18,649 nt of DNA from Zelonia costaricensis (Eukaryota; Euglenozoa; Kinetoplastea; Trypanosomatida; Trypanosomatidae): contig JASAOO010003037.1 of the NCBI GenBank assembly GCA_030849075.1, forward strand, positions 1-18,649, given 5' to 3'. Made by a program: the position numbers and the translations under genes. Shown here in pieces: positions 2,942 to 17,605 of this stretch (position 1 is its first letter; each line of letters opens with the position of its first letter). The notes under the pieces were generated by a model, which worked only from the letters and a program-made list of their open reading frames with translations, did not search any database and was not told where the DNA came from.

Positions 2942-3808
2942 CCGCGGGACTGTGTTGCTGCGGTCGCTCTTTTTGTTTTTGGTGGAACGCCCATTAAAAG
3001 AAGGAGTGATTCGCTGTTTCACCAGCGCGATCGTTAGCCAACCGTTCTGAAGCGTGTTTCCAGCATCTGCGGTGTTCACACCAACAAAGAAGAATGATAG
3101 CGACACAGCCCTCTCTCGAGCAGGTGCGCCGACACTGGTGCGGGTAGTGGCGGCACAACACGAGTTCGGTAGCAGGCGTCTAGAGCTGTGGTCTCGCTGC
3201 AACTCCTCCCATAGTGGAGAGATGGAAGGCGCGTCTGCACTCGTTTCGCTCTCGCAAAACACAGCACTTCGGAAGTGCGACGTTTCGCTCTCTGTGTGAG
3301 TCCACTTTGTTATCGCAACTGCATCCTTTCTGGTAATCCTCTCCGTCCTCGCTCATGTGGCTCCCCACATCGATCGTTCGCACGAAACGCAACTCGCGTT
3401 CGTTGCGTGCGCGTATCCATGTGGGTGAACGTCCATCAAGGTTGCACGCTTGTCTTCTAGCCGTTTTTTCAGTTGCCACCTCTTTCTCGTCCCTCACGCA
3501 CACTCAAACCAATTTCCTGTCGACTCCCGGTATTTCACCGAGTAGCTCCTACGCGCGCCCGCACTCGACTTGGACTGCGGCTCCTTCCCAACAGCGCCTA
3601 CACGCCTGCTTTGCCCGCCGTGGGTTGTTTGCACCGGCGTGTGAACACAGGGAGCGACGACTCGGGTCTCCTGACTTCCCTCTGTTTGTTTTTGCGCTCT
3701 GGTGGGCACGCCGCCGAGCCGCTTTCCCTCTCTCTCACTCTCGCGCTTTCTGTGTGGCACTTTTCTGGCCTTGTGCGTGCTCAGCCGGTGCAGGTGACGC
3801 AGAGACGA
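2942..3808 (+). other. Intergenic region, carboxypeptidase copy B to isocitrate dehydrogenase
   Basis: About 870 bases with no recognisable gene. The sequence directly after the TAG does not resemble the sequence after the TAA of copy A, so the duplication similarity stops at or very near the stop codon. The frame of the dehydrogenase happens to stay open upstream to 3473. That stretch codes for low-complexity Ser/Leu/Arg-rich sequence, overlaps the splice signal, and is taken as non-coding. Pyrimidine tracts become dense from about 3560. Confidence 0.7.
3721..3784 (+). promoter_or_regulatory. Trans-splice acceptor for isocitrate dehydrogenase
   Basis: A CT-rich tract (3721-3767) is followed by GTGCTCAG with AG at 3783-3784, 24 bases before the ATG at 3809. 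A second AG at 3792-3793 is a possible alternative. This placement supports the 3809 start and excludes the upstream in-frame ATG at 3473 from the mature mRNA. Confidence 0.65.
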
Positions 3809-5086
3809 ATGGCAGAGGCTATCGGGTTCGCGAAGGGGGCGCTGGTGGTGCCGAACCACCCCGTCATCCCGTACATTGAGGGCGATGGCATTGGCAAGGA
3901 AATCACGGAAGTGGCACACCGCGTGTTTGACGCTGCGGTGGCCAAGGCGTACGGCAACGCGCGGCACGTGTCGTGGATGGAGGTGCTGGCCGGCGAGAAG
4001 GCCTTCGAGACGAAGGGGACGTGGCTGCCCGAGGAGACGATTGCTGCCTTCCAGACGTACCGCGTCGGCCTGAAGGGCCCCCTGGCCACCCCGGTTGGTG
4101 AGGGCATCCGCTCCCTCAACGTCGTGCTGCGCCGCCAGCTCGATCTTTTCGTGTGTCAGCGGCCAGTGCGCTGGTTCACCGGCGTGGGGTCGCCGATGCG
4201 CCACCCGGAGTGGGTTGACATGGTCGTCTTCCGCGAGAACACAGAGGACATCTACTCGGGCATCGAGTGGGCGCAGGGCACGCCTGAGGCGGCCAAGTTC
4301 GGCGAGTTCCTCGAGAAGGAGATGGGCGTAACGGCGGTCCGCTTCCCGCAGACGAGCGCGTACGGCGTGAAGCCGGTATCGGTCGAGGGCAGCGAGCGGC
4401 TTGTGCGAGCTGCCGTGAAGTATGCCATTGACCACCACCTGCCTTCCGTCACGCTGGTGCACAAGGGCAACATCATGAAGTTCACCGAGGGCGGCTTCAA
4501 GAAGTGGGGCTACGCGCTGGCGGAGCGGGAGTTCGCCGAGTCCGTCTTCACGATGCCACAGTACGATGCCATTGCGGCAAAGAACGGCAAGGAAGCAGCG
4601 GAGACGGCGCTGCGCGAGGCGACGGAGAGCGGCAAGGTGGTCATCAAGGACTGCATCTGCGATGCCTTTCTGCAGAACACGCTGCTCCGTCCGCTGGACT
4701 ACAGCGTTATCGCGACGATGAACTTGAACGGCGACTACGTCTCCGATCAACTCGCCGCGCTCGTCGGCGGCATCGGCATTGCGCCAGGCGCGAACATCAA
4801 CTACGCCACCGGGCACGCCATTTTCGAGGCGACGCACGGTACGGCCCCCGACATCGCGGGGCAGGGAAAGGCAAACCCGTCCTCCCTCATCCTCTCTGGG
4901 GCAATGATGTTCGATTACATGGGCTGGTCCGAGGTGTCGGCGCGCATCATCAACGCGCTGGAGATGACTCTCCAGGCGAACCTCGCAACTGGCGACCTGG
5001 CCCGGCAGATGACCGGGGCCAAGCCACTTTCCACGACCGAGTTTGCTGAGGCCGTGATCAGGAACATCAACGGTAACGGCGCTTGA
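3809..5086 (+). CDS. Isocitrate dehydrogenase, bacterial (E. coli Icd-like) type, probably NAD+-preferring
   Basis: Encodes 425 residues aligning end to end with E. coli-type homodimeric isocitrate dehydrogenase, which converts isocitrate to 2-oxoglutarate and CO2 with reduction of NAD(P)+. Visible landmarks are IPYIEGDGIG (20-29), the substrate-binding loop IRSLN (100-104) with Arg108, Arg118 and Arg142, Tyr149 in NTEDIYSGIEW, Lys219 in VHKGN, Asp281, and Asp309/Asp313 in NLNGDYVSD. E. coli Icd recognises NADP+ partly through Lys344, Tyr345, Val351, Tyr391 and Arg395. Here the aligned residues are Asp348, Ile349, Ala355, Gly395 and Arg399, the pattern of NAD+ enzymes at four of five sites. 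No strong mitochondrial presequence and no C-terminal SKL are seen; the chain ends NGNGA. The start is chosen because it directly follows the splice signal and gives an Icd-like N terminus. Bacterial origin by gene transfer is an inference. As I recall, Leishmania is reported to have two divergent IDHs, one NAD+-specific. Confidence 0.96.
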   Translation: MAEAIGFAKGALVVPNHPVIPYIEGDGIGKEITEVAHRVFDAAVAKAYGNARHVSWMEVLAGEKAFETKGTWLPEETIAAFQTYRVGLKGPLATPVGEGIRSLNVVLRRQLDLFVCQRPVRWFTGVGSPMRHPEWVDMVVFRENTEDIYSGIEWAQGTPEAAKFGEFLEKEMGVTAVRFPQTSAYGVKPVSVEGSERLVRAAVKYAIDHHLPSVTLVHKGNIMKFTEGGFKKWGYALAEREFAESVFTMPQYDAIAAKNGKEAAETALREATESGKVVIKDCICDAFLQNTLLRPLDYSVIATMNLNGDYVSDQLAALVGGIGIAPGANINYATGHAIFEATHGTAPDIAGQGKANPSSLILSGAMMFDYMGWSEVSARIINALEMTLQANLATGDLARQMTGAKPLSTTEFAEAVIRNINGNGA

Positions 5087-6345: not shown

Positions 6346-6995
6346 GGAAAGCGAACCACCCGCTTCACGAAGAAACGCGACAAGGAGCGCCGTACTTCCT
6401 CTTCAAGATAGACGAGTATTCGGCGGGGGGAAGAACATGAGGAGAAAACATCGATCATCTGTCCGTCAACGAAGGCGTGTCTTTCGCTACACTTGGCTGC
6501 TGCTTCTGAGTCGCCGCCTCCAGCAGGAGGAGTAGGAGAGAGGTTCTAACGAACCGGCTGTCCGCTTGCTCTTCTTGCGACCACAGACGCATCCACCCGA
6601 AAAAAGTCTCCCTTTAGACCAACTGAGTTGCGGGTTGCGGTTTCTGGTTTTGTCCGCCCCTCTTACCGATCTGTGTTCTCGGACACAATTGGAGCCTCGT
6701 GTGTGGCTTGCGTCGCCTGCCCCAGCTCGCCCGATCTAACTTGGTTGTCCGTCAGCTTCCGCCACCTTGTCCCCACCTCTTCTTCTCGCCAGCGTCGCAC
6801 CCTCCCCGCCCAGCTCTGTCACATCGCCACGCGGCCCATTCGTGCACGGAGCTTTCACACAAGAGAAAAAAAGAAGTTGCGGCGCACCGATCCGTCACTC
6901 TCTCCCCCCCCCTCTGCTATTATCTGCATCTCAACCTCAACTGTTAGCTCGTGTGTGTGTGTGCGTTGGCTCGCAACCTCCTCGCACAACCTCGT

Positions 6996-7031
6996 CACCC
7001 ATCCCCCCCCGCTCTTCTTCCCGCCCTGCAG
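6996..7031 (+). promoter_or_regulatory. Candidate trans-splice acceptor abutting the third carboxypeptidase start
   Basis: A strong C/T tract (C8 at 7003-7010, then CTCTTCTTCCCGCCC) ends in TGCAG with AG at 7030-7031. Only two bases separate this AG from the ATG at 7034. If used, the native 5' UTR after the spliced leader would be 2 nt. An earlier candidate is the AG near 6946-6947 behind another tract. Confidence 0.5.
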
Positions 7032-7033
7032 AT

Positions 7034-8551
7034 ATGCCCGAGGCATACGAGCAGCTCGAGAAGCTCTTTCAGGAGCACTACCGCTACCACCACCTCATGC
7101 AGCTCGCTCTCTGGGATGCGCGGGTGATGATGCCGGCCAAGGGCGCCAAGGCCCGCGGCGCCGCCACGGCGCAGCTGAAGTGGCACATGCACGAGATGCT
7201 CACCAGCGAGTCCACAAAGAAACTACTTGAGACGGTTGCGGCCGAGGCACACTTGCTGGGCCCCGTGGAAAGGGCGAACCTGCGCGAAATGCAGCGACGG
7301 CACCTGTCCGACGCCGCACTGCCGGCGGAGTTTGTGGGGCGCAAGGCAAGACTGTCGTCGGTGGCGGGGGTAGGCTGGGCCAAGGCGCGCGCGCAGAACA
7401 ACTTCGCGCTGTTCGAGCCGTACCTGAAGCAGTGCGTCGAGGTGGCGCGGGAGGAGGCGCGCTATCGCAGCGCTGTCTTTGGCACCGGTGTGTACGAGTC
7501 GCTCTTCCATCTCTTCGAGTGCGGCATGTCACTGGAGAGCGTCGACGCCATCTTTCGCGACATCCGTGTCTGGCTGCCGCCGCTGCTGCGCCGCGTGCTG
7601 GCGGTGCAGGAGGAGACGCAGGCCAACACCGTGCCGCTGCGTGGGCCGTTCCCGGTCGAGCAGCAGAAGCCGCTGTGCGAGTTCATGGCGCAGGTGTGGG
7701 GCTTCGACTTCGAGGGCGGCCGCCTCGATGCAAGTCCGCACCCCTTCACGGGCATGGTGCCAGAGGACACTCGTATCACCACCAGTTACAGCACCGCGAC
7801 GTACACCAAGGCCATGTTCATGACGATCCACGAAACGGGCCACTCGCGCTACAACGTCAATCTCGGGCCGGAGGGCAAACGTGGGCAGCCCGTGGCGGAG
7901 GTGCGCTCGCTCGTGATTCACGAGGGGCAGTCGCGCATGGCCGAGGTGGTGATTGGCCGCTCCGCCGCCTTTGCGGACTTCGCGACGCCCGTGCTGCGCC
8001 GCTTCCTCGGCGACGACCCGGCGTTCGCGTCGGTGGAGAACGTGCGGCAGGTGCATCAGCAGGTTCGGCCCGACCACATCCGCCTCACCGCGGACGAGGT
8101 GTGCTACCCGCTGCACATCCTCTTGCGCTACGAGATCGAGCGTGCCCTGGTGGAGGGCAAGATGGAGGTCGCCGATGTGCCGCGCGTGTGGAACGAGAAG
8201 ATGCAGGCCTACCTCGGGCTGTCCACGGAGGGCCGCGACGATCTGGGATGTCTGCAGGACATGCACTGGTCGTGGAATCTCTTTGGGTACTTCCCTACAT
8301 ACACGCTGGGGTCCATGTACGCGGCGCAGCTGATGGCAACCATCAAGCGCGAGCTGGGCGAAGGCGTCGTGAATGCGGCCATTCGCACAGGACAGCTCGG
8401 CCCCATTCTTGCGAAGCAGAAGGAGAAGGTCTGGGAGAACGGGTCCCTGTACACGACGGAGGAGCTGATCCTCCTCACCACCGGGGAGCCGTTGAACCCG
8501 CGGTACTTCCGGGAGTACCTCGAGCGTCGCTACCTGCGCGGCGAGGACTAG
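7034..8551 (+). CDS. M32 metallocarboxypeptidase, divergent paralogue
   Basis: Encodes a 505-residue M32 zinc carboxypeptidase. Motifs in order are SPHPFTG (234-240), DTRIT (245-249), HETGH (266-270, HEXXH type with catalytic Glu267), HEGQS (296-300), the ADEVCYPLH segment from residue 353, GCLQDMHW and GYFPTY. All expected zinc ligands and the catalytic glutamate are present, so it should be active on peptide C termini. It differs from the tandem pair: by eye only about a third of residues agree in the N-terminal part, and the glycine before GYF in copy B (HWSMGSLGYF) is replaced (HWSWNLFGYF). It ends RYLRGED, with no SKL-like signal. The DNA from 8090 to 8284 is unusually close to 2486-2680 of copy B. 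The start is placed at the ATG directly after the splice signal; the upstream in-frame ATG at 6767 precedes that signal. Confidence 0.96.
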   Translation: MPEAYEQLEKLFQEHYRYHHLMQLALWDARVMMPAKGAKARGAATAQLKWHMHEMLTSESTKKLLETVAAEAHLLGPVERANLREMQRRHLSDAALPAEFVGRKARLSSVAGVGWAKARAQNNFALFEPYLKQCVEVAREEARYRSAVFGTGVYESLFHLFECGMSLESVDAIFRDIRVWLPPLLRRVLAVQEETQANTVPLRGPFPVEQQKPLCEFMAQVWGFDFEGGRLDASPHPFTGMVPEDTRITTSYSTATYTKAMFMTIHETGHSRYNVNLGPEGKRGQPVAEVRSLVIHEGQSRMAEVVIGRSAAFADFATPVLRRFLGDDPAFASVENVRQVHQQVRPDHIRLTADEVCYPLHILLRYEIERALVEGKMEVADVPRVWNEKMQAYLGLSTEGRDDLGCLQDMHWSWNLFGYFPTYTLGSMYAAQLMATIKRELGEGVVNAAIRTGQLGPILAKQKEKVWENGSLYTTEELILLTTGEPLNPRYFREYLERRYLRGED

Positions 8552-10069: not shown

Positions 10070-11049
10070 GCCCTTGCGTTGGCTCCCATCTTCCGTGATC
10101 CTCCGTATCCCCGCGCCCTCTGGTGAGTTTTGTGGTGCGTTCTTCGTCTTGCTGACCGTGCGGCGTGTGGCGTGCGAAAGGTGGGGAGTGCGTTGGCGCT
10201 CACGTGGCGGTGAAACTTGGCAGAGGCACCGCCTCCCGTTCTTCGCCTGTCCGCCGACACCTGTGCTGCACAACCTTCTCTTCCTCCCTTGACGGCGGCA
10301 GTTCCTTTTTCCGTGTCACCGGGCTGCGTGACTCCGGCTCCGTGTGCATTGCCGTCTCACCTGCTTTGCCTTTCCTGCCCCGCTTCCTCCTGTTGCGCTG
10401 CACTTTACCGCCGTGCTCACACGCGCTTTGGGGGTTGAGAGGGGGGGTGCGGGGACTGTACCAAAGCCGAACGGTCCGTTGCGTGGCGTGTCGCGTGCCG
10501 GTCGTGCATGGCACGTGGAGAAAAAGTCGATCTATACCCTGTCCCCGCGTTTCTTCGCCCTGTGCGTTTGTTCCTTTGCTCCCCGCACACTGCTGCTGCT
10601 GCCGCTACTGCGTGTCCCGCAAACCGCACGAGGTTCTAGGGCGCCCGTTCTCCCTTGGCCCGCACACTTGCAGACTCTCCTCTTATTGTCGGCATCTGAC
10701 AGCGGAGCCCCCTCCCACCACCACCACCCCTTCCACCTGCGCCTTGTTAGGCGCCCCTTCTTCATCTTTATTTTTGCGTGTGCGCACTTTGCAGCCGGTG
10801 CCGCTCTTCGCTCTTTTTTGCCATCAAGCTGCGACCACCCCGTTCCACCAAGCCTCTGCTCTGGCGCGCGCGGGAGCCGGGTGGCTGGCCTGCGCGTGAC
10901 GTGTTTCTTTACGCGTCGTCCATCACGGGGGCGCTGGCCAGCATTGCCTCGGCGAATTGCACCGCAACAAGAGGCACCGCAGTGTGCTGTAGATTGCACT
11001 ACACCGCCTCCGCTGGAGGTTTCGTGTTGCACGCATCTTTCGCTAGGCG

Positions 11050-11089
11050 CCACTCCCTCTTTCTCTCTTCCGTGCTGGGTCCTCTCCAG
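11050..11089 (+). promoter_or_regulatory. Trans-splice acceptor for the kinesin-ROCO gene
   Basis: A pyrimidine-rich stretch (CACTCCCTCTTTCTCTCTTCC, then CCTCTCC) ends in CCAG with AG at 11088-11089, 24 bases before the ATG at 11114. An alternative AG lies at 11104-11105. It supports the 11114 start over in-frame ATGs further upstream. Confidence 0.6.
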
Positions 11090-11113: not shown

Positions 11114-14100
11114 ATGAGCGAGAGCCCCACTGCTGTGGCGGCTGGCGCTGCTGCTGCTGCCGCCGCGCAAGAGGCGGACATAAGCCGGGCTCAGTCCGCT
11201 GCGCCTTCGAGCGAGAACAGCACGGAGGAGAACACGGGGTATGAGGAGGGGCGCATCACCGTCAGCGTCCGAGTGCGCCCGCTCAACGCGCGGGAGAGCA
11301 AGCTCGATGTTGGTCTCTGTATTGCCGCGCTGCCGGGCTACAGCACCATCTACATCCTCCCCTCGGGCGAGTCGGAGGCGCAGTTGCGGGGTCTGCTCGC
11401 CGCCGACCCACAGCTGCGCGGCACGCGACACCACCGCTTCACCTTCGATCACGTCTACCCCACCGACGCCACACAGGAAGAGGTGTACGACCAGATCGGG
11501 CGGCCGGTGCTGGAGTCGAGCTTCCGCGGCTACCACACGTGCATCTTTGCGTACGGCCAGACCGGCAGTGGCAAGAGCTACTGCATGATGGGCGCCGACG
11601 GCGGTCGTACCATCGACGTGGCCCCCGGCATCATTCCGCGCCTGTGCCGCGAGATGTTCGTCGAGATGGACAAGCGGCGGCAGGCGGCCACCGACAGCGG
11701 CGCGGAGGTCGACTTCAGCGTCTACGTGAGCTACCTGGAGATCTACCGCGAACGCGTCCGCTCACTTCTCGACGAGGTGCACGATGCGCGGCTCGTCTCG
11801 GCGGGCAACGCTGGCGGAGACGCCGGCGCCGCCTCGCCACGCCCGCTCGGCGCGTCGCTGCGCCGCCCGAACGCGCAGCATACGGCTGCGATGGGTGACT
11901 CCAGCGACGCCGCCCTGCGGGTGCGCGAGCACCCCACGCTGGGTGTGTATGTGGAGGGCCTCGCGGAGATCCCGGTGACGAGCGAGGAGCAGGTGCTGCG
12001 GCTCATGGTGCGCGGCAACCAGCGCCGCCACACCGCCTCCACAAAGATGAACGACACGTCAAGTCGCTCACACGCCATCTTCACGCTGCAGCTGCTGCAG
12101 AAGCGCACACACACGGTGCCCTCGAGCGAGGCGGCAGCGATGGCACCGGAAGGCGGCGGCGGCGGCGGTGCAGCCAGCTACGGGGCGCCATCGGCGGCGG
12201 CGGTGCTTGCGGCCGCTGGCGCCACGGAGACCGTGACGACCATGACGACACAGCTTGGCGCGAAGATCAACCTCGTCGACCTCGCTGGCAGCGAGCGAGC
12301 CAAGGCGACGGGCGCGGAGGGCGAGACGCTCAAGGAAGGCGCGCAAATCAACAAGTCGCTCACCACACTCGGCATCGTGATCAACGCCCTCGCCGCGCAG
12401 TCGTCCGCGAACGCGGCGAGTGGCGCTGCGCACGCTATCGGCTCACCCCTCGCTCGCGGCACGGCGAAGCGGCACATCCCGTACCGCGACTCCACGCTCA
12501 CCTTCCTGCTGAAGGAGTCGCTCGGCGGCAACAGCAAGACCTTCATGATCGCCACTGTCAGCCCCAGTGCCGACAACTACGACGAGTCACTCAGCACGCT
12601 GCGGTACGCGGATCGAGCCAAGGCGATCGTCATGAAGGCGTTTGTGAACGAGACCGCCGGCGACAAGCGCATCCGCGAGCTCGAGGAGGAGGTAACGCGG
12701 CTGCGCGAGCAGATCCGGTCGCTGCTGTCCGCTGAAGCCCAGCGCTTCTCGGTGTCGGAGGGACCCGTGGCGCTGCGCGACAGCGAGTCTATGCCACTGC
12801 CCTCGGAGCCCTGCATAGTCCCGTATGTGAGCGAGGACGAACGCGAGGCGAGGCACGAGCGCCACGGCTTCCCCCGCACGGCCGTGATGGAGGTGGGCGC
12901 GGGCGAGGCGCAGGGTGGCGTTGTCGCAGTGGAGCCACCGCGGGGCTCCTGCGAGGGCGACGGGACGCGGGGCACAAGCCCGACCCCGTCCGCGTCGCCC
13001 TCGTCCGACTGGCACCACGAGGAGTCGAGCGCCGTCGTCGTGGAGACGCTGCACTCGGAGCTGCGCCGCGCTGAAGAGTTGATTCGGCAGATGTCAGACA
13101 CGCAGGCAGAGCGGGACTCGCACGTGGCCCAGCTCATCCGGCGACACGAAGAGGAGCAGGCCGCCAGCCGCGCCGCGGCCGTCACGATGGCTGCCGCGGC
13201 CGCCGCGGCCGCCGCGAGCAAGGAGGCCGAGAAGAATGCGGCAAGCGCCATGACAGCGACGATGCGGCTGCACCGCGAGGAGCCGTACCTGCTCAATATG
13301 GACGGCGCAGGCGACTGGGTCGTGGCCTACCTGGGGCCGGCAGAGACGCGCGTAGGCTGCTTCGAGGACCACCGCCGCGGACGTCACGGCGCTCACGACG
13401 AGAACAACGGCGGCGACTCCGTCGACTCCTCGATCGTCCTCTCGTCGCGTGCCTCGGTGTCATCTTCCGGTGCCACAGGCGATGCAGGACAAACTGCTGA
13501 TGGCTGCGAGGCGGTGCGTCGCGTGTGCATTCCTCGCGAGTTCGGCGATGGCATCGGGGCCCCGCATTGCGTTCTCGATCGCTCAGGCTTGACTGCCGCG
13601 GCGGCGGCGGCGAAGACGGTGCTCCGGGCGTGCCCGGGCTTCGACACGTACGTGATGCGCCCCCTGTCTCGCACCCCGTTTGTGGTCAAGGGCGGCGACA
13701 CGTTCACGGTGCAGAGTGGCGACGTGCTGGACCTTGGCAATGACCACATTCAACTCAAATACATGGACCCCACCGAGCCACCCGTAACAGCGCGTGGCCG
13801 TCGCACCGCGCCGGTGCCGCCCAAGATCGCCCTCTCCGGCCCAGCATCGGCGGAGTGGACCGGCAGCGATCGCGGGGCCAGCTCTGCCGCCGCCTCACGC
13901 GCGTCCGCTGGGCACCGGCAAGAGGCGGCCGCAGCCGACGCGCTGCGGCAGCGAAGGAGGCAGAGGATGGGGCCAGCAGGGGGTGCGGACAACGCCGCTG
14001 ATGCTGCAGGCGCCAGCGCCACTGGAGTGCGCGGCGGCGGCGGTGACGCCCCTGCGTTGGCGCTGTACGACAGCTTCTCCTCGCAGTCTGCATACGAGGA

Positions 14101-17100
14101 AGCGGACAATGCGGAGGGCGGGGCTGAGCCGGCCCAGTACGCAAGCGACACTGACAGCCACAGCGGCGACTCCTTCAGCGACTCCGAAAGCGACGAGATG
14201 CCGAGCCCGGGTGCGGAGCAGCCGCGGTCGCAGGCAACCACGCCGTCCCCACCGCTCAGCCGTCCGGTCATTCCGGCCTTGGCCTTCGGCAAGGCGTTTC
14301 CAGGAAGCCGCTTCTCCCCGCCGCCCCCTCCTGCAGCGCCAGCTCCGGCGGTTTCCACGTACGCAGCGGTGGGGCCCGCGGACGGTGTCGCCGCATCGTC
14401 AAACCCCTTCGAGTCCACCAGCAGCTACACCGGGAGCGAGCCGGACGACCATGAAACGTACGATGTGCAGGAGGGGTCGGGGATGGAGCAGACCACCTCC
14501 GACCTGGGCAGCACCACGCGGAGCCAGCACACCGGCACCGGCGCAGGAGGCGTCAAGGGCCTCACCTTCTCGCTCCCGTTGTCGCGGCTCGTGCCTACGC
14601 ACTCGGCTCCTGGCGCGCCAGGAGCTCCGGCGAAGCCGGCGCGTCCCGTCAAGACCCGTGTGCCCAGCAAGCGCACCCCGCAGACGGCGCACCTCAACCC
14701 CAACTCGGCCCTCTCCCTGTCGGAGATGCAGGCGATGCGGACGAACGCGTCCTCTGGCACGTACCGCAGCGAGCTGCCCCCGCGCTTTGTGGGCCGCTAC
14801 AACCTCCTTCTCGTCGGGCCCTCCGGCAGCGGCAAGAGCACGCTGGTCGACAACCTCGCCAAGGAGGACGAGCCGTGGCTGCAGTCCGCCTTCTCCGTCT
14901 TGACCAGCAGCGCGCGCGGCCTTGGTGGCGTCAGCGCCTCCGGCGGCGGGGGCCGCCCGACGTTTGGAATCCACACCACAACCATCACCGCCCCTGGCGC
15001 CACACCCATGAACCTCCACGTCCACGAGCTTGGCGGCACGCCGTGCTTCAGCCCGCTGCTGGACCAGCTGCCGTCCCACCGCGTCACGTACTTGCTGTGC
15101 TTCCCGCTGAACAGCGGGCCGCCGCTCATGGCGCTGCGTGGCATTGTGGAGGACATCCTGTGCCGCACCGACAGCCACACCGTCGCGCTCATCTTGGTCG
15201 GCACCCACGCCCACCTCAGCAACGCCGCGGGTGGGGCGAAGGGCGAGACGGGCGGCCTCTTCTCACGCCGCCTCAGCCCGGTGCGGCAGGCGATGCTGAA
15301 GCGGCAGATGGAGGAGGTGGAGCTGCAGGTCGCGAGCCTCATCCAGATGCTGCAGCCCTTCCCCCAGCTGCGGCCCACCATCGTCGGTCGCTTCGCAGTG
15401 GACAACGCGCAGCGGCAGGTGTACGCGACGGGGTACCGGGCGGTGGAGGGCTTCCCAGAGCTGCTGCAGTGGCTCGGTGACACGGCGCGCGATCGGTGCA
15501 AGGCCGACGCCGACTTTGCCGGTGGCTTGGTGCCGGCCCGCTGCATGGAACTGGGCCGCCAGGTCGGGCTGCTGCGGGAGCGGGGCAAGTGGTGTCTATC
15601 CCTGCGCGACTTCAAGGCCCTCGCGACGGCGGTGAGCTCGCAGTACGACACGGCGCCCCCTGCCGGCGCAGACGGGACGCTCGCCCGCGACATTCTACGC
15701 CAGCACATGCAGCTGCTGGCCGACTGGGGCGTGCTCGCTCACCGCTTCCGCAGCACGCCGTTGCGCCAGCACGTTATTCTCGATGTGGTGTGGCTGTGCC
15801 GCCTGCTGACCACGCTCGCGTGCTGCGCGCTGGTCGCGACGGCGGAGTCGGACGGGCTGACAAGCGAGGAGGCGGCGACGCTGGTGGACGTGGCGGGCGA
15901 ACGGGGTTCAGTGCTGCTTTCCAAGAAGGAGGCGGCGCTGCGCATTCTGCTCACCCCCGGCGCAGAGCGCATCGTCGATGTCGTCAAGGTGGCTACGACC
16001 GACACCCCGCACCTGCTCCGCTATGGCGTGCTGTCCATGCCCGTCCTCGTGACGATGCTGGAGCCGCACTTCAGCGAGTGCGGAGAAGGGGGCGGCGCGC
16101 AGCGCGGCGCAGGGGCGGGGCGGCGGGTCGACAACGCGGCGCTCAACTTGATCGCCCGCGGCGACCCGTCCACGACGGACGCCCGCTACGCCGTTCCACT
16201 GGCGGGGGTGCTCGAGCTGCTCGTGCTGTGCGACTTTATCATTGCCGGTCGCAAGCTGCTCTTCAGCCCAGGCAGCGACAGTGGCGAGCCAGCGTCCGTC
16301 GCCGCACCGCAGAGCGGCGGAGGCACACACAACGCCACGACACAGGGCAGCGGTAACACCGCGGAGGACGAGGACGCAGACGGCATCGACCCGGCGAAGG
16401 AGAGCTTCGTCGTGTACCCGCTGCACTTCCGCACGCCCGCGTCGGCCGGTGTGACGTGGCTGATGCCGTGCTTCCTCTCTGGCCCGTTTTACGTCTTCAA
16501 GATGGACATGGTGCCGCGCAACTTCTTCCCGAAGCTGCTGTGCCGACTGGCAACCGTGTCAGACCGCATCTACCTCGGCCCCGCCGTGGCGCAGCGCTGG
16601 GGCGGGCCGACACAGCGCTGGGGATCGGACGCGGCTCGCTCGCGCGGCGGTAATGGCGGGCGCCGCCCCCCGGCGGGTCCATTTGATGCGTACTTCAGCG
16701 AGTGCGCTGGCAAGTCGTTTGTGCTGCCGCACTTCGCGGGGCAGCGCCCGCACGCACCCGAGGACGGGTCGCCGCGTCGCCGCGACGGGTTCTGGTTTGA
16801 CGCGGCGTGGCTGCTGTACAAGGATGGCGCACGAGGTCGTGGCGTCGACAATGCCGCTGGCGACCCGCACGGGGACGACGGGGACGACGACGATGGCGAC
16901 AACTGTCGCGTCCTGGTGCGTCTGGTGCACCACAGCATCTTTCTCTCCTTTCACTGCCACCGCGTCGCGACGTCAGCCGGCGTTGGCGGTGGCGGTGGCG
17001 GCGATGCCGGCTCGGCGAGCCCTGGGGTGCAAGATTTCTACGAGGCGGTGCTGGAGGCGGTGCGGCACGTTGTGGAAGAGTACCCTGGGGGCAAGTGCGG

Positions 17101-17605
17101 CGAGTCGATGCAGTGCTGCGTGGACCCAACGGCGCTGCTCGAGATGGAGTTGCGCCACCCCGCGGTGCAGTCGGACCGCGAAACCGCCGCCATGGACAAG
17201 TACGTGCGCTTCGCCAGCATCAGCGACAACCTGAACAGCCTGGAGCGGGTGCTGGCCAAAAGCGGGACGGCGCTGCGCACGGCGCGAACGGCGCGGCGCT
17301 CGCACGGCGCCGCGGCGGCGGCGGCGTCAGAGGAGCAGGGAGAGGATGAGAACACGTACGTGCCGCTCCTGCGCAACTTCAGCGCCACGGCGCCGCTAAA
17401 CGTGGCTGAGTGCATTCGCCGCTGGAAGACGGAGCAGCACTTTTTTATTTCGACCGAGGTGGAGGGGCGTCTGGTGCGGGCATTGCAGGAGCTCGGCGGT
17501 TGCTACCACCGCAGCCGCAGCGAGGACGCATCCGCAGTGATGCGGAACAGCTGCTTCGCGCTGGACAACCTGCTCGATGTGCTTGCCCGCGTCGACACAG
17601 CCTAG
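11114..17605 (+). CDS. Kinesin-FHA-Roc-COR chimera (giant kinesin with ROCO module)
   Basis: Encodes about 2163 residues. The kinesin motor spans about 48-505, with P-loop GQTGSGKS (148-155), SSRSH (316-320), DLAGSE (389-394) and the C-terminal RYADRAK. Low-complexity inserts lie at about 222-266 and 331-378. A short coiled coil starts at 517 and a second helical stretch runs from about 640 to 720, including poly-Ala. A kinesin-3-like FHA domain (722-885) shows TRVG (745-748), HC (818-819) and DTYV (844-847), split by an insert of about 45 residues. A disordered Ser/Pro/Gly/Ala-rich linker follows to about 1225. A Roc GTPase-like domain then carries P-loop GPSGSGKST (1235-1243), a G2-like Thr1283, a G3-like HELGG (1304-1308) and a G4-like VGTHAH (1362-1367). 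COR-like sequence runs from about 1473, with its second half at about 1765-2005 ending in a YPGG/CC segment like the end of ROCO COR domains. No LRR or kinase domain is seen. The motor and FHA calls are secure. Roc-COR rests on motif order and is strong but unaligned. A role in microtubule cargo transport or flagellar work is inference. Confidence 0.9.
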   Translation: MSESPTAVAAGAAAAAAAQEADISRAQSAAPSSENSTEENTGYEEGRITVSVRVRPLNARESKLDVGLCIAALPGYSTIYILPSGESEAQLRGLLAADPQLRGTRHHRFTFDHVYPTDATQEEVYDQIGRPVLESSFRGYHTCIFAYGQTGSGKSYCMMGADGGRTIDVAPGIIPRLCREMFVEMDKRRQAATDSGAEVDFSVYVSYLEIYRERVRSLLDEVHDARLVSAGNAGGDAGAASPRPLGASLRRPNAQHTAAMGDSSDAALRVREHPTLGVYVEGLAEIPVTSEEQVLRLMVRGNQRRHTASTKMNDTSSRSHAIFTLQLLQKRTHTVPSSEAAAMAPEGGGGGGAASYGAPSAAAVLAAAGATETVTTMTTQLGAKINLVDLAGSERAKATGAEGETLKEGAQINKSLTTLGIVINALAAQSSANAASGAAHAIGSPLARGTAKRHIPYRDSTLTFLLKESLGGNSKTFMIATVSPSADNYDESLSTLRYADRAKAIVMKAFVNETAGDKRIRELEEEVTRLREQIRSLLSAEAQRFSVSEGPVALRDSESMPLPSEPCIVPYVSEDEREARHERHGFPRTAVMEVGAGEAQGGVVAVEPPRGSCEGDGTRGTSPTPSASPSSDWHHEESSAVVVETLHSELRRAEELIRQMSDTQAERDSHVAQLIRRHEEEQAASRAAAVTMAAAAAAAAASKEAEKNAASAMTATMRLHREEPYLLNMDGAGDWVVAYLGPAETRVGCFEDHRRGRHGAHDENNGGDSVDSSIVLSSRASVSSSGATGDAGQTADGCEAVRRVCIPREFGDGIGAPHCVLDRSGLTAAAAAAKTVLRACPGFDTYVMRPLSRTPFVVKGGDTFTVQSGDVLDLGNDHIQLKYMDPTEPPVTARGRRTAPVPPKIALSGPASAEWTGSDRGASSAAASRASAGHRQEAAAADALRQRRRQRMGPAGGADNAADAAGASATGVRGGGGDAPALALYDSFSSQSAYEEADNAEGGAEPAQYASDTDSHSGDSFSDSESDEMPSPGAEQPRSQATTPSPPLSRPVIPALAFGKAFPGSRFSPPPPPAAPAPAVSTYAAVGPADGVAASSNPFESTSSYTGSEPDDHETYDVQEGSGMEQTTSDLGSTTRSQHTGTGAGGVKGLTFSLPLSRLVPTHSAPGAPGAPAKPARPVKTRVPSKRTPQTAHLNPNSALSLSEMQAMRTNASSGTYRSELPPRFVGRYNLLLVGPSGSGKSTLVDNLAKEDEPWLQSAFSVLTSSARGLGGVSASGGGGRPTFGIHTTTITAPGATPMNLHVHELGGTPCFSPLLDQLPSHRVTYLLCFPLNSGPPLMALRGIVEDILCRTDSHTVALILVGTHAHLSNAAGGAKGETGGLFSRRLSPVRQAMLKRQMEEVELQVASLIQMLQPFPQLRPTIVGRFAVDNAQRQVYATGYRAVEGFPELLQWLGDTARDRCKADADFAGGLVPARCMELGRQVGLLRERGKWCLSLRDFKALATAVSSQYDTAPPAGADGTLARDILRQHMQLLADWGVLAHRFRSTPLRQHVILDVVWLCRLLTTLACCALVATAESDGLTSEEAATLVDVAGERGSVLLSKKEAALRILLTPGAERIVDVVKVATTDTPHLLRYGVLSMPVLVTMLEPHFSECGEGGGAQRGAGAGRRVDNAALNLIARGDPSTTDARYAVPLAGVLELLVLCDFIIAGRKLLFSPGSDSGEPASVAAPQSGGGTHNATTQGSGNTAEDEDADGIDPAKESFVVYPLHFRTPASAGVTWLMPCFLSGPFYVFKMDMVPRNFFPKLLCRLATVSDRIYLGPAVAQRWGGPTQRWGSDAARSRGGNGGRRPPAGPFDAYFSECAGKSFVLPHFAGQRPHAPEDGSPRRRDGFWFDAAWLLYKDGARGRGVDNAAGDPHGDDGDDDDGDNCRVLVRLVHHSIFLSFHCHRVATSAGVGGGGGGDAGSASPGVQDFYEAVLEAVRHVVEEYPGGKCGESMQCCVDPTALLEMELRHPAVQSDRETAAMDKYVRFASISDNLNSLERVLAKSGTALRTARTARRSHGAAAAAASEEQGEDENTYVPLLRNFSATAPLNVAECIRRWKTEQHFFISTEVEGRLVRALQELGGCYHRSRSEDASAVMRNSCFALDNLLDVLARVDTA

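Follow-up and report, generated by a model that had tools for sequence, protein, structure and literature searches.

Here we describe a predicted trypanosomatid protein that very probably joins a kinesin motor, an FHA region and a Roc–COR module in one reading frame. The protein, of 2163 amino acids, is encoded on the forward strand (11114–17605) of an 18,649-nucleotide stretch of DNA, referred to below as the window, which comprises positions 1 to 18,649 of contig JASAOO010003037.1 from Zelonia costaricensis (GenBank assembly GCA_030849075.1). A previous reading of the letters of the window, the original prediction, had claimed one uninterrupted frame with kinesin, FHA and second P-loop motifs; all of these are present, in the order it gave. 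It had also known of no described kinesin–Roc–COR protein, and we recognised none among the papers listed in searches of the open-licence literature, at the level of titles and the beginnings of abstracts. As far as we searched, the combination of kinesin and Roc–COR is new, and its individual parts are of known kinds.

The frame is unbroken over 2163 codons and a stop codon. Reading is open between a GTG at 10778 and the stop codon at 17605, with the ATG at 11114 taken as the start. The guanine-plus-cytosine (GC) content of third codon positions is 0.73–0.93 in the 21 intervals of 300 bp that start within the frame, compared with 0.52–0.63 in the six intervals that lie wholly outside it and 0.72 in the interval that straddles its start (at 11014). 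Four of the intervals (0.73–0.92) fall in a low-complexity linker (residues 891–1222; 13784–14779, +) that has no Pfam match and keeps the coding signature; by this measure the frame looks coding throughout, linker included. On the reverse strand beneath it, the longest wholly contained open reading frame has 303 amino acids, and another of 334 amino acids overlaps the start. A pyrimidine run followed by AG is the pattern expected at a spliced-leader acceptor, and a likely acceptor lies upstream of the ATG (11053–11089, +), with a run at 11053–11071 and AG at 11088–11089. A scan of the frame for pyrimidine runs of at least 14 found one, at 16938–16952 inside COR-B, and none between the motor and Roc. 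As the frame stays open, the coding signature is kept and no long pyrimidine run intervenes, the sequence signals no second gene start between the two halves.

The motor domain (residues 53–505, with inserts; 11270–12628, +) matches Pfam Kinesin from position 1 to 327 of 327 (E = 4.2e-99, 332 bits). It is complete and keeps the P-loop (GQTGSGKS, residues 148–155), SSRSH (within NDTSSRSH, 313–320) and DLAGSE (389–394), which places it in the kinesin superfamily. The closest PDB sequences are KIF13B and KIF1A, and the top 14 of the best 60 PDB matches are KIF13B, KIF1A, a KIF1C-related protein or entries with kinesin-3 in their title; on the basis of these nearest sequences we assign the motor to the kinesin-3 type. 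A neck linker and short neck coil are predicted at residues ~507–547 (12632–12754, +), where a rough coil rule flags residues 500–547 and Kinesin_assoc matches only at E = 0.08. The same rule predicts a second short coil at residues 633–677 (13010–13144, +).

After these coils comes a probable, strongly diverged kinesin-3 FHA region with a long insert (residues ~722–890; 13277–13783, +), which contains TRVG (745–748), PHCVLD (817–822) and DTYV (844–847). Its only two matches up to E = 10 among 177635 distinct PDB sequences are the FHA domains of KIF1C (E = 1) and KIF1A (E = 1.1). Local alignment to pieces of KIF1A scored 70 when the insert was cut (maximum of 2000 shuffles, 50) and 58 when it was not, a score equalled in 1 of 2000 shuffles. 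A profile of nine FHA domains from the same genome matched the region at 2.1–3.0%, under the shuffle maximum. The genome used for this and the other within-genome searches comprises 28.67 Mb in 755 contigs, of which the window is contig 227.

The C-terminal half carries the second P-loop (GPSGSGKST, 1235–1243) and VGTHAH (1362–1367). A predicted Roc domain (residues ~1228–1470; 14795–15523, +) and, directly following, COR-A (residues ~1471–1720; 15524–16273, +) are well supported. With hhalign, the tail matched a profile built from 18 pieces of bacterial Roco proteins (a set of 93 before thinning) at 94.9% (score 68.7; maximum of 100 shuffles, 27.7) in an alignment that spans Roc and COR-A, pairing TFGI (residues 1283–1286) with the T-x-G-I of Roc, HELGG with WDFGG and residues ~1531–1560 with COR-A. 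Residues 1216–1440 matched bacterial Roc at 93.9% (score 49.8; maximum of 60 shuffles, 20.3), and COR-A by itself reached 36.3% (score 30.7; maximum of 60 shuffles, 19.0). Six other proteins or pieces, compared as controls, gave at most 1.0%. A small-GTPase profile, which contained one wrong-frame row, matched the tail at 55.1% over the P-loop alone.

Besides the tail itself, a search of its own genome with the tail returned one locus at E ≤ 0.001. This locus, L010 (contig 742, 97–3147, −), encodes a genuine Roco protein of 1016 amino acids. It is identified as such by Pfam (Roc, 3.4e-13; COR-B, 3.3e-4; COR-A, 1.8e-3), by PDB sequence (LRRK2 Roc, 9.7e-7) and by how it aligns with seven Roco proteins carried on plasmids; no leucine-rich repeat (LRR) or kinase is among its Pfam matches up to E = 10. 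BLASTP aligned the end of Roc and COR-A of the tail with L010 at E = 1e-8 (residues 1420–1568; 26% identity over 159 aligned columns), and with the whole fusion protein as query the match was confined to the COR region. The local alignment score of the tail and L010 was 105 (maximum of 1000 shuffles, 63). After its COR-B, L010 carries a zinc-ribbon-like CPNQDC...CPTC; some cyanobacterial Roco proteins have cysteines near this point.

The two motors nearest to that of the fusion protein by E-value lie in proteins from contig 683 (1470 amino acids) and contig 605 (2193 amino acids). BLASTP of the whole fusion protein against these two matched the motor and one marginal stretch of 59 columns (E = 0.065), and found no Roc–COR-like tail. 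Across the genome there are 65 kinesin motor matches, with several falling in one gene when its motor is interrupted by inserts, and long motor-bearing frames occur on contigs 233 (2278 amino acids), 605 (2246 amino acids) and 480 (3490 amino acids).

COR-B (residues ~1762–2012; 16397–17149, +) is predicted to follow COR-A, interrupted by glycine-, alanine- or aspartate-rich inserts, and shares WxD..WL and CRVLV with L010. With three inserts cut, it aligned collinearly and matched by hhalign at 27.0% (score 27.5; maximum of 60 shuffles, 19.5), and with inserts cut its alignment with L010 scored 52 (maximum of 1000 shuffles, 49). An alignment-led AlphaFold 2 (AF2) model had LRRK2, LRRK1, MbRoco2 and CtRoco as its best PDB matches, a result biased by the Roco rows in the input alignment (A5, in which TFGI is not placed as switch I); in this model COR-B blocks 581–600 and 711–780 stand at 70–74 and 44–80, respectively.

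Several results give a Roc–COR assignment no clear support. COR-B is its weakest part: uncut, the hhalign match falls to 2.0% (score 20.2; maximum of 60 shuffles, 18.0) and the alignment score with L010 to 42, which 15 of 1000 shuffles equalled. Seven small GTPases encoded in this genome fit the Roc part of the bacterial profile at 97.8–99.1%, ahead of the kinesin tail. Pfam run on the whole protein reports no Roc–COR and gives AAA-type P-loop matches below their cut-offs, and an AF2 model from the single sequence was uninformative, with a predicted local distance difference test (pLDDT) score of 38 and no Roco protein among the 50 matches listed. Plain HMMER with the bacterial Roco profile reached 8.3 bits (E = 0.59; best of 2000 shuffles, 2.0). 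Matches in PHROGs and NCBIfam were mainly to P-loops, none above the NCBIfam curated cut-off; the viral contigs searched contained no relative, and tblastn of the tail against plasmids gave a single match at E = 0.3.

The seven small GTPases, however, end by profile position 163 and reach at most 0.4% over COR; because they match Roc but not COR, the assignment rests on COR-A and not on Roc alone. The Pfam result carries little weight here, since Pfam COR-A run against the whole genome gave no match at E = 0.001, L010 included. By eye, low-complexity or poorly conserved inserts at residues ~225–270, 332–380, 427–453, 753–796, 1655–1690, 1715–1765, 1840–1890, 1905–1930 and 1952–1972 separate the conserved blocks of the motor, FHA and COR, and Pfam likely misses or splits domains in this protein because of such interruptions. 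The architecture that had been proposed is supported by the COR-A match, by hhalign and by the alignment-led model, and is weakest in COR-B.

Judged by its motifs, the fused Roc may be a pseudo-GTPase, a point that the original prediction had overlooked. G1 is intact, with the P-loop Lys and Ser kept. The G3 Asp is replaced by Glu (HELGG, 1304–1308, with ELGG at 1305–1308), Thr stands where Gln is usual after GG, and the G4 Asp is replaced by His (THAH for THxD, 1364–1367), so that an intact G1–G4 set is absent. L010, which has no motor, differs in keeping intact G motifs (DFAGQ and THLD). The switch-I Thr is kept if TFGI is switch I. TFGI falls at the T-x-G-I of Roc in the bacteria-only profile and in one alignment (A4), and is placed elsewhere in five MAFFT alignments and in the profile to which L010 was added. 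We take it as switch I because 22 residues separate it from HELGG, much as 23 do in L010 and 24 in bacterial L030, as counted by eye. Such a Roc domain may bind nucleotide yet lack the usual specificity for GTP or the usual hydrolysis. The altered G3 and G4 lower the case for an active GTPase, and the ‘switch’ that the original prediction saw in this module is not assured; they leave a Roc–COR ancestry untouched, since critical residues are also missing from most members of a set of Entamoeba Roco domains (PMC2927912, excerpt).

Taken as a whole, we lean slightly towards a single polypeptide in which COR sets the oligomeric state of the motor and Roc scaffolds or switches it, a mechanism that we infer. 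The COR part would self-associate and so pair two motor chains or, alternatively, would contact the motor–FHA part; either way it would govern the dimeric state and activity of the motor. Roc, with its P-loop intact and G3 and G4 altered, would act either as a scaffold with nucleotide bound or as a switch whose nucleotide preference has changed. ARL8 controls the kinesin-3 motors UNC-104/KIF1A in trans. For this reason a regulator that resembles a GTPase and acts in cis on such a motor is attractive, and Roc–COR would match the role of small GTPases that act in trans on other kinesin-3 motors. For comparison, CtRoco is mainly a dimer when nucleotide-free or bound to GDP and a monomer with GTP (PMC5714945, excerpt). 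A more specific form, in which the protein represents a further Roco group whose Roc–COR is wired to kinesin-3, replaces long coiled-coil dimerisation and regulates oligomeric state and autoinhibition, is doubtful; the short predicted coils that persist at residues 500–547 and 633–677 weigh against such a replacement, which the original prediction had suggested.

The same coils would serve a rival with the same architecture, in which Roc–COR is a pseudo-GTPase that serves as a tail for cargo or scaffolding independently of nucleotide, and in which any dimerisation of the motor runs through its neck and pre-FHA coils, as in other kinesin-3 motors. We consider this reading less likely. The changes to G3, G4 and the Gln position, when L010 keeps DFAGQ and THLD, speak for it; the retained P-loop Lys and Ser, and the switch-I Thr if correctly placed, speak against it. 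Coil content points both ways: by the rough rule, the fusion protein has 162 coil-like residues (39 of them inside the motor), far fewer than the 443 of the contig-605 protein, although the contig-683 protein has only 149. Two readings that deny the architecture itself are much less probable. It is very unlikely that the C-terminal half belongs to a different P-loop NTPase family and resembles Roc–COR only superficially, as might be suspected from the sub-threshold AAA-type matches, from the better fit of small GTPases to the Roc profile and from a best PDB sequence match to this half that is not a Roco protein. The similarity of COR-A to that of L010, the collinear placement of Roc and COR-A in one profile alignment and a COR-A score above 60 of 60 shuffles all argue against such a family, and an unrelated P-loop protein without COR, which the original prediction had named as the outcome that would overturn it for residues 1220–2010, did not emerge from the profile searches. 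Least probable of all is that a mistake in assembly, or processing that escaped recognition, has made two genes or products look like one. The long low-complexity linker between the halves would suit this reading, and the evidence for the fusion comes from one genome and one assembly; the absence of a stop, the coding signature across the linker and the lack of a long pyrimidine run leave no sign of a junction in the sequence.

The protein ends in a C-terminal tail without a Pfam domain (residues 2013–2163 and the stop codon; 17150–17605, +). Elsewhere in the window, two frames for M32 carboxypeptidase Taq lie on one strand (1445–2941 and 6767–8551; Pfam E = 4.6e-152 and 1.1e-137), and an isocitrate/isopropylmalate dehydrogenase-like frame (3473–5086; E = 3.6e-89) sits between them.

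If the architecture is correct, a motor that moves on microtubules has been fused in nature to a module of the LRRK2 type. Under some conditions LRRK2 itself associates with microtubules (PMC9758056 and PMC9290818, excerpts), and the kinesin-3 motor KIF16B is among the top matches of an LRRK2 proximity proteome (PMC13304329, excerpt). With Roc–COR joined to a kinesin, whether such a module sets the oligomeric state of a motor becomes directly testable, and L010, the other Roco protein of this genome, whose G motifs are intact, offers a natural comparison for the degenerate copy.

Like the KISc–FHA architecture, which is reckoned ancestral to eukaryotes (PMC2867816, excerpt), the protein combines a motor with a probable FHA region; no Roc is named in that architecture. 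The survey in that paper covered 1624 kinesins from 45 eukaryotes, with Trypanosoma and Leishmania named among the discicristates, and distinguished 105 architectures by Pfam and CDD, with 1300 kinesins having no domain beyond the motor; its main text contains neither ‘Roc’ nor ‘GTPase’. Because the survey used Pfam and CDD, a Roc that Pfam misses would stay hidden in it. With the Roco proteins LRRK2, LRRK1, CtRoco and MbRoco2 the protein shares a Roc with COR-A after it and, with less certainty, COR-B; it differs in its N-terminal-side kinesin motor, in its altered G3 and G4 and in having no LRR or kinase domain reported by Pfam. LRR and kinase are not universal in Roco proteins, as LRR is absent from DAPK1 and kinase from MFHAS1 (PMC6337361, excerpt). 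The three Roco groups described in that excerpt (LRR–Roc–COR, those with a kinase, and DAPK1) include none with a motor; ‘kinesin’ and ‘kinetoplast’ are absent from PMC6337361, as is ‘kinesin’ from PMC6320773. The fusion protein would extend Roco proteins to a lineage that this portion of PMC6337361 does not name.

The kinesin-3 proteins KIF1A/UNC-104 and KIF13B have an N-terminal motor, a neck with a short coil and then another coil before an FHA region, the order predicted for the fusion protein. The tails of other kinesin-3 motors contain coils together with domains that bind lipids or proteins, PH among them. The tail of KIF16B, for example, carries PX (PMC13304329, excerpt). Unlike these kinesin-3 proteins, the fusion protein has a probable, strongly diverged FHA region and, in place of such tail domains, a predicted Roc–COR module.

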